Assembly (NCBI GenBank): GCA_947458875.1
Contig: CANGZD010000002.1
Location: forward strand, 62,001 to 126,000
Direction: 5' to 3'
Source of the DNA: Sphingobacteriaceae bacterium
Lineage (GTDB): Bacteria; Bacteroidota; Bacteroidia; Sphingobacteriales; Sphingobacteriaceae
Length of the DNA stretch: 64,000 nt
In this document: positions 15,061-53,330 of the stretch, in pieces
How positions within the stretch are numbered: the first letter of the stretch is position 1
How the letters are laid out: every line of letters begins with the position of its first letter
Notes under the pieces: generated by a model
The model's database searches: none
Told to the model about the DNA's origin: nothing
What the model saw: only the letters and a program-made list of their open reading frames with translations
Translations under genes and position numbers: made by a program

Positions 15061-15106
15061 CAATATGGGTGCTTATTTTACGAGAAGTCGGTGAAACTGA
15101 CTGTCG

Positions 15107-15200
15107 CTTATCTTTTCCCTCTCGGGATAGAATGTAGCACCTTGTGGGTACAGGTTGCTAAGACTTCGCAGGGTCTATTCCCTCCGTCTTTCTCTATAAG
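15107..15200 (-). promoter_or_regulatory. SAM-I (S-box)-like riboswitch in the metH-metF leader
   Basis: Minus strand CTTATAGAGAAAGACGGAGGGAATAGACCCTGCGAAGTCTTAGCAACCTGTACCCACAAGGTGCTACATTC...GATAAG: S-box core GGAGGGA..GCAACC..GGTGCTA with P1 CTTAT/ATAAG; immediately upstream of metH. Confidence 0.88.
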
Positions 15201-15355
15201 CACGACAAATTTGCCAATTTTAAAGCTGTTTTGCAAATAGACAGGCTATAAAATCAAAATTTTAAAGGGTTTGAAGGTGTGAATACGAGTTTTTAGCAGC
15301 AATTGCATGACTTGTTTTTTATCGGACAACCTTTGTGTTCTTTGGAATAAAAGAT

Positions 15356-20125: not shown

Positions 20126-20201
<76 letters not shown>

Positions 20202-20233
20202 AGTTGAGTTAAAAAGAACTTAACTAATATAAT

Positions 20234-20305
20234 GGCCCGTTCGTCTAGGGGTTAGGACGCAAGATTTTCATTCTTGAAACAGGGGTTCGATTCCCCTACG
20301 GGCTA
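20234..20305 (+). tRNA. tRNA-Glu (TTC)
   Basis: Acceptor GGCCCGT/ACGGGCT, anticodon arm CAAGA-TTTTCAT-TCTTG, T arm AGGGGTTCGATTCCCCT. Confidence 0.92.
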
Positions 20306-51962: not shown

Positions 51963-52059
51963 GATTTTTCATCCTCATTTATTATTAATCCAGTAGAAAA
52001 AATATTTCTCTTAAATCTATTTTTTTAATAACTTTACTTATGTAAAATGCTTTCTTGTT

Positions 52060-52197
52060 AGAGCAATTGTGAGGAGGTCTTAATTACTGCGACCCTTAAG
52101 TCTTCAGGCAGATGCGCAAAACTTTTGCGTGGGTGTATGTTGCAAGATGGGTAGTCGCAGTACCTATTCATTCAGCATTATCCACGCAATTTTTTTA
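52060..52197 (+). ncRNA. Candidate structured RNA (6S-like rod or attenuator) ending in a T tract
   Basis: ACTGCGAC (52086-52093) pairs with GTCGCAGT (52154-52161); inner CGCAAAACTTTTGCG hairpin; TTGCGTGGGTG can instead pair with TATCCACGCAA followed by TTTTTTT. Confidence 0.5.
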
Positions 52198-52255: not shown

Positions 52256-52804
52256 ATGAAAAATAAAACAGGAAATGCTTCTCAGGGAGAAATGGAAATG
52301 AAAGATTCGGCACTATTTGAATTATTTGTGTCGGAACTCCGAGATATTTATTGGGCAGAAAAACACTTGGTTAAAAATTTGCCTAAAATGGCCAAAGCCG
52401 CTACTTCTGGTGATTTAAGAATGGCTTTTATGGAACATTTAGAAAAAACAGAGCAACAGGTGGAACGTTTGGAAGAGATCTTTCAGGTAATCGATAAAAG
52501 AGCCATCGGAAAGCGATGTGAGGGCATGGATGGAATTGTGGATGAGGGAAAAGAAAAAATTGAAGACACCGAACAAGGTTCCCTGACCCGCGATGCCGGC
52601 CTTATTTCGGCAGGTCAAAAAATTGAACATTACGAGATTGCTACTTATGGTACCTTGAAAACCTTGGCAGCAGTGCTTCAGTTGGATGATGAAATCATCG
52701 ATCTTTTATCGCAGAGTTTAGAAGAAGAAAAATCGGCAGATGTGAAACTCACCGAAATTGCAGAGGGGCATGTAAACGAAGATGCCAGTGAAGAAAAAAG
52801 GTAA
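52256..52804 (+). CDS. ferritin-like DUF892 protein (YciE/YciF type)
   Basis: LFELFVSELRDIYWAEKHLVKNLPKMAKAATSGDLRMAFMEHLEKTEQQVERLEEIF. Confidence 0.92.
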   Translation: MKNKTGNASQGEMEMKDSALFELFVSELRDIYWAEKHLVKNLPKMAKAATSGDLRMAFMEHLEKTEQQVERLEEIFQVIDKRAIGKRCEGMDGIVDEGKEKIEDTEQGSLTRDAGLISAGQKIEHYEIATYGTLKTLAAVLQLDDEIIDLLSQSLEEEKSADVKLTEIAEGHVNEDASEEKR

Positions 52805-52850: not shown

Positions 52851-53330
52851 TTATTTCAAAGCCCTCTGACTTTCGCGGTCCCAATAAACCCGGCTGATAT
52901 AAGGCCGGTATTGTAATTGGGTAACCAAAGGCAAATGAGGGAAACTTCGTATCACATGCCGGCAATTCAGAGCATTACAATTACATTTCATCGACCAAAA
53001 AGGGTCCAGTTCGGTACTGGAATAATCTAAGAAAAGTTCGCTGTGTGCCGGAATGTTGGCCCAGCTCATGATCTCTTTATGCTTGTTAATGAACACATTA
53101 GGGCTGCAAGAATGGTTTAGGAATAGTACCGGACTCTCCGGCTGTGGCACCACCCATTCCCGATCGCCAACTCCGATCCAGTTGGCACCTTGTACCGCAA
53201 ATTCTGGTGTGTATTCATGAAAAATATGCTCGCCATCGAACCGGAATATGATTTGTTTTGGCCTGATGTTGATGGCGGTAAACAAGCCCTTCCCTGCTAC
53301 CGGCGATGCGGAAATGTATAAGTTTTCCAT
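52851..53330 (-). CDS. SET-domain protein (putative lysine methyltransferase) with post-SET-like Cys cluster
   Basis: SPVAGKGLFTAINIRP, FLNHSCSPNVF, ELFLDYSSTE, MKCNCNALNCR. Confidence 0.88.
   Translation of the reverse strand: MENLYISASPVAGKGLFTAINIRPKQIIFRFDGEHIFHEYTPEFAVQGANWIGVGDREWVVPQPESPVLFLNHSCSPNVFINKHKEIMSWANIPAHSELFLDYSSTELDPFWSMKCNCNALNCRHVIRSFPHLPLVTQLQYRPYISRVYWDRESQRALK

Follow-up and report, generated by a model that had tools for sequence, protein, structure and literature searches.

A diverged copy of an apparently uncatalogued Bacteroidota RNA family with two mutually exclusive folds

Attenuators of the trp type are built from four segments that pair as 1:2, 2:3 or 3:4, with mutually exclusive terminator and antiterminator folds in a leader right before the gene. 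In terminator-platform riboswitches, those for SAM among them, a structured leader with its own promoter and with pseudoknot potential likewise chooses between a terminator and an antiterminator. 6S RNA (RF00013), a decoy of RNA polymerase, and 6S-Flavo (RF01685) have a rod-like outline. To our knowledge, Bacteroidota have neither Hfq nor CsrA. The FopS small RNAs of Bacteroides, which have been deposited in Rfam, are described as acting in trans and consisting of a single-stranded 5' seed and a terminator (PMC11697453).

We analyzed a 64,000-nt stretch of DNA from a Sphingobacteriaceae bacterium (the window), which holds a SAM riboswitch at 15105-15202 on the minus strand (RF00162, 65.5 bits) and two adjoining tRNA genes at 20126-20305 on the plus strand. 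The RNA described here lies elsewhere in the window, behind a thioesterase gene. From its homologues and from modeled folds, we consider it probable that this RNA belongs, as a diverged copy, to a widespread class of Bacteroidota leaders acting by transcription attenuation.

The window copy and its competing pairings

All elements of the RNA are on the plus strand. A -7-like promoter element, TAACTTTA (52029-52036), is of the Bacteroidota TAnnTTTG type, and TAnnTTT[G/A] is found at the equivalent site in nearly all homologues. Transcription is predicted to start a few bases 3' of this element, at about 52040-52045, and the whole RNA is predicted to extend over about 52040-52196. In the centroid fold, it has a 5' hairpin (TGCTTT...AGAGCA, 52048-52065); three other species of the genus (G002, G003, and G004) have a hairpin at this site too, with a sequence that differs from that of the window copy.

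The initial annotation had described a long rod crossed by a terminator-like arm, and every pairing that it named is present. In the rod, AGGT (52075-52078) pairs with ACCT (52162-52165) as the outer pairing, followed by helix C, in which ACTGCGAC (52086-52093) is complementary to GTCGCAGT (52154-52161), a pairing that covaries in the family. The 5' strand of this helix, TACTGCGAC (52085-52093), which also shows family covariation, may be part of the rod or kiss the apical loop of the terminator. Further inside, segment 2, TCTTCAGGCAGATGCGCAAAA (52101-52121), provides the 5' side of the antiterminator (2:3) in the rod fold, and the equivalent helices covary in homologues. The rod has an inner hairpin, CGCAA-AACTT-TTGCG (52115-52129), the 3' side of which doubles as the terminator 5' arm. 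This arm is segment 3, TTGCGTGGGTGTATGTTGCAAGA (52125-52147), with TTGCGTGGG invariant in five genomes. In the competing fold, TTGCGTGGGTG (52125-52135) is complementary to TATCCACGCAA (52179-52189) within segment 4 (..TTATCCACGCAA; 52173-52189), the terminator 3' arm, for which there is covariation in the family and behind which stands the T7 run of the intrinsic terminator (52190-52196). A second inner hairpin, GATGGGTA/TACCTATT (52146-52168), has GGU/ACC pairs that covary in the family, and helix C takes its 3' strand from the 7-nt loop of this hairpin, GTCGCAG.

The terminator stretch (52124-52197) is predicted to fold at -30.5 kcal/mol, with z = -6.9 and 0/200 shuffles as stable, which makes the 3' hairpin (52125-52189) and its T7 run a strong intrinsic terminator by prediction. 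The whole 191-nt region is unremarkable when compared with shuffles (z = -0.85), and comparative evidence is therefore required to show structure. When folding of the growing transcript was modeled, the rod was the best fold (-29.4) in shorter transcripts, until the terminator 3' arm was made, after which the terminator prevailed. The terminator state of the window copy reaches -44.8 vs. -29.4 for the rod, which speaks against attenuation at this locus: since the terminator state is far stabler, this copy may be stuck in the OFF state or be a plain small RNA. Judged by these computed energies, it is a diverged and possibly OFF-biased member of the family.

Relatives in the genus and in the phylum

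When 60 related genomes were searched at the DNA level, copies of the RNA turned up in four other species of the genus, at the same site behind the thioesterase gene; following that gene by synteny yielded no additional copies. When the five sequences are aligned, TTGCGTGGG, the GGGTAGTCGCAGTACCTAT core, the upstream ACTGCGA, and CCACGCA in the terminator 3' arm are invariant in 5/5. The 3' half of the RNA is 77-97% identical among the genus homologues vs. 70-89% for adjacent coding DNA; in one pair (G002 and G004; L004 and L005), the RNA is 97% identical and the thioesterase coding sequence 88%. A -7 element that matches TAnnTTTG fully or with one mismatch is located ~95-135 nt 5' of TTGCGTGGG in the window, G002, G003, and G004, while that of G005 is more degenerate (TAACTTCA).

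A covariance model made from genus members only (R1) found the genus and one genome of another genus (E = 2.4e-6), where the sequence of the rod helix is wholly different and the pairing is retained; a near-identical copy of that RNA occurs in a second species. The remaining weak matches at this stage were inspected and dropped as unrelated. With both of these copies added, the model (R2) found dozens of loci, including some in other families of the class. A full-length model was then built from 34 loci (R3, alignment A7), with G002, G003, and G004 left out, and it recovered all three (G004, L005, E = 9.4e-10; G002, L004, 1.7e-8; G003, L003, 1.4e-4). The window copy itself scores weakly against R3 (14.3 bits, E = 0.007 in 701 nt), and it is thus a diverged member recognized through its sister species. 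Its membership, as read from sequence, rests on a chain through G002-G005 and G088. Matches to R3 are present in 179/301 sampled genomes of the window's taxonomic family, covering 18/25 genera with one to seven copies each, and in 58/396 genomes across the phylum, including families outside the class. With laxer filters, a genome may hold up to eight copies (ten genomes).

The initial annotation had called this an unannotated structured RNA and had proposed an Rfam search, together with covariation in homologues, as its tests. No family in Rfam 15 reaches its gathering score over the element, whether for the window copy or at any of 39 member loci. The best match at relaxed thresholds, to the microRNA family mir-242, is below threshold and was taken as chance. 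A set of identical 24.9-bit, 78-nt matches suggested tRNA, an identity that we dropped because the same loci exceed 130 bits with R3 and several are conjugative-element copies. Among papers on 6S RNA in Sphingobacteria, leader RNAs and candidate RNAs, searched apart from the supplementary tables of motif surveys (e.g., PMC8040213), none was found to describe the family. The RNA thus apparently represents a widespread Bacteroidota family that is uncatalogued.

Covariation was found for both folds. In a MAFFT alignment of 34 members, 26/39 pairs of the rod change on both sides, and 92.7% of cells are paired vs. ~40% in slid controls. In an alignment of 90 sequences, 39/39 pairs change on both sides (769 cells vs. 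211 shuffled and 51-106 slid), a count that leans towards the rod because this alignment was fitted to the rod model. For the alternative fold, which consists of the 5' hairpin 1:2, the terminator 3:4, and the GGU/ACC inner hairpin, 27/33 pairs show compensatory changes in 220 cells vs. 82 shuffled, a count free of that lean because the fold is outside the model. The corresponding covariation score is 0.31 vs. 0.19 for shuffled and at most 0.09 for slid alignments. In the inner hairpin E and in the terminator arm, G-C/G-U exchanges are tolerated more than full swaps. The family consensus reads AGCAUU..CACUUA..UCUCG for segment 1, CGAGA..UAAGUG..AAUGCU for segment 2, GCGUGGGCUCACUUAUUGUUG for segment 3, and UAAGUUGAGUUCCACGC-U run for segment 4; bases of segments 2 and 3 are used in both folds. 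Among the 34 members, the mean energies are nearly equal, at -49.7 kcal/mol for the rod vs. -51.3 kcal/mol for 1:2 plus 3:4. Judging from topology, helix C, which joins the loop of 1:2 with the apical loop of 3:4, would fit both states, since it can be formed by loop-loop contact or can close the rod at its base. The two mutually exclusive folds proposed from the single sequence are therefore both conserved in evolution with compensatory changes. The initial annotation was right in its observation, which it understated, and is partly supported in its interpretation.

Genomic setting and mobile copies

Behind the window copy lies a gene for a DUF892/YciE-like ferritin-like protein (52256-52804, plus strand; PF05974, E = 4e-52), the presumed cis target. 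It is followed by a SET-domain protein gene (52851-53330, minus strand; PF00856), which is convergent to the RNA and the DUF892 gene and is a conserved neighbor within the genus. The link to the ferritin-like gene made in the initial annotation stands for the window, where the ATG is 60 nt 3' of the T run, and G003 also has a DUF892 gene behind the RNA. It fails for G002 and G004, in which this gene is absent and the convergent SET-domain gene ends at most 20 nt away, an arrangement that goes against attenuation.

Across the family, 117/133 loci have a next gene (at least 110 aa) in the same orientation as the RNA, whereas the upstream gene shows no preference (66 plus, 60 minus); in a second sample of 40 loci, the next gene is co-oriented in 35 and opposite in 4. 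These samples include paralogues and related species, so that the counts are of non-independent events, and the gene calls are simple open reading frames rather than annotation. The first reading frame often begins 25-55 nt past the T run. In the 60-nt regions immediately upstream of the element, 8.1 kb in total, there are 142 instances of TAnnTTTG (17.5 per kb), and in the 13.2 kb between the RNA and the next gene there are two (0.15 per kb), vs. 7.3 expected. The simplest reading of this orientation and promoter placement is that the gene behind would have the RNA as its 5' leader. Against attenuation, several further copies are without a nearby co-oriented gene, and in one family 200-300 nt separate the RNA from SusC-like genes.

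The downstream genes fall into >40 unrelated protein clusters and point to no single pathway. SusC-like TonB receptors follow the RNA at 35 loci; other products include a ~68-aa orphan ORF, response-regulator receivers, thioredoxin-like, sigma-factor-like and RibD_C proteins, and lipoproteins. Many genomes of the family encode the 68-aa protein behind the RNA (L011, L051-L060); it has no Pfam match in its relative L123 (..FPNFEYSASEVFKYMYILKDFTLMLNDGDIVKFTPDDEDAFKKWLDDNGVQNIREES..), and a related 95-aa version precedes a response regulator at two loci (L136, L230). At five loci (L198, L220, L221, L224, and L227), a recurrent chromosomal order is seen, with the RNA, 35-50 nt, an orphan protein of ~90 aa (..NSPESVQLLFWKMFQ..), and a redoxin/secreted-protein operon.

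A subset of copies sits on conjugative elements. Three species (L187, L195, and L196, in G088, G149, and G188) share ~12 kb at 99.9% identity that encode TraQ, two HTH_17 proteins, the RNA, and a receiver-like gene; TraQ is also present, with DUF4138, in a related conjugative element. The neighboring cargo differs between related elements and may be a defense island. BLAST searches found one copy on a Rhizosphaericola mali plasmid and none in phages. A contig from a viral collection (IMGVR_UViG_3300049216_000492, L180) has one copy; here, the RNA precedes a response-regulator frame with an in-frame stop, with an apparent histidine kinase on the opposite strand. Mobility of this kind would explain why the RNA is multicopy and patchily distributed.

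Attenuation, its rivals, and likeness to known RNAs

The case for attenuation is made by homology, the position of the promoter, the covarying folds, the near-equal computed energies, and the co-orientation of the next gene. From these, we infer that polymerase terminates or reads through, which way the control runs, and that there is a trigger. A TAnnTTTG promoter would drive the RNA and also the gene behind. In the OFF state, segment 1 would pair with 2 and segment 3 with 4, the latter giving the intrinsic terminator. Switched ON, the leader would have segment 3 captured by segment 2 in the long rod closed by helix C; the terminator could then not form, and polymerase would continue into the next gene. 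Helix C may form whichever state is adopted, either through kissing loops in a pseudoknot or at the rod base. Candidate triggers are a ligand, a protein, another RNA, or temperature. No conserved leader reading frame was found in the family, where ATG positions are scattered or track a base-pair swap with no invariant start: most such triplets are found at sites of AAUGCU/AGCAUU pairing, and they become ACGCU opposite AGCGU. Ribosome-driven attenuation as in trp is thus unlikely. The switchable attenuator that the initial annotation had offered as one of two options gains support from the covariation of both exclusive folds.

Possible, though we doubt it, is a stand-alone small RNA of ~160-200 nt that acts in trans and for which a position upstream of genes is no more than a tendency. 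Its two folds would then be shapes adopted by the mature RNA, for example exposing or hiding a seed upon binding of a protein or a target. Such an RNA would have its own promoter and terminator, as seen here, and might be multicopy, as are the FopS small RNAs of Bacteroides (PMC11697453); it would also be in keeping with the strong constraint in G002 and G004, which lack a cis gene to regulate. However, co-orientation of ~90% of next genes and the depletion of promoters in between are unexpected for independent small-RNA genes, and there is no obvious invariant single-stranded seed, the best-conserved positions being mainly in or beside helices. A leader could also, once released, go on to serve as a small RNA.

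A lineage-specific 6S RNA, the other option in the initial annotation, appears very unlikely. The RNA is of similar length, is rod shaped, and has its own promoter, and neither 6S nor 6S-Flavo has a match elsewhere in this genome or its relatives. RF00013 was found in 0/41 genomes (this genome and 40 relatives) by a search that found the positive control in five reference genomes, and RF01685 has no match in this genome or the 40 relatives in a search run without a positive control. Yet 6S is hard to reconcile with up to eight copies per genome, with copies on conjugative elements and a plasmid, with the failure to find the RNA in many relatives, and with a rod that has no large symmetric central bubble, overlaps the terminator, and is followed by co-oriented genes. 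There is hardly any room left for a chance fold, in which the ordinary intrinsic terminator of a thioesterase operon would be joined by fortuitous complementarity. The thioesterase gene is indeed upstream on the same strand, and the 191-nt region as a whole is no stabler than its shuffles, but there is phylum-wide covariation for both folds, which had already refuted this reading, and five species share an invariant core.

The broader proposal is of bistable Bacteroidota leaders that sense signals, spread phylum-wide, and move horizontally, with a four-segment attenuator and a kissing core that, through a cellular signal, control uptake operons of the TonB/SusC type and, on conjugative elements, response-regulator genes; we give it an even chance. 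The family occurs in ~60% of sampled genomes of one taxonomic family, is scattered in the phylum, and shows unusually strong covariation of two exclusive folds, yet Rfam 15 does not contain it. Should it prove to be a leader switch, a phylum whose RNA control is poorly known would gain a major RNA regulator, and SusC-type uptake genes and conjugative elements would gain a control point open to direct testing.

Among described systems, trp-type attenuators share with it the four segments, the exclusive terminator and antiterminator, and the place of the leader right before the gene. Unlike them, the family is without a conserved leader peptide, precedes very diverse genes, and adds the loop-loop helix C that joins hairpins 1:2 and 3:4. 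Its own promoter, structured leader, pseudoknot potential, and terminator/antiterminator choice are reminiscent of terminator-platform riboswitches, from which it differs in downstream genes with no evident common pathway and in having little unpaired invariant core. With FopS it has in common that it is a multicopy Bacteroidota RNA with a Rho-independent terminator and a connection to SusC-type genes; it is probably distinct from FopS as described (PMC11697453), given its extensively paired 5' half and the lack of an Rfam match for the window copy and 39 member loci. The likeness to 6S and 6S-Flavo is one of length and rod-like outline, in contrast to which the family has no match to either model, is multicopy, mobile, and gene-linked, and has a terminator that overlaps the rod.
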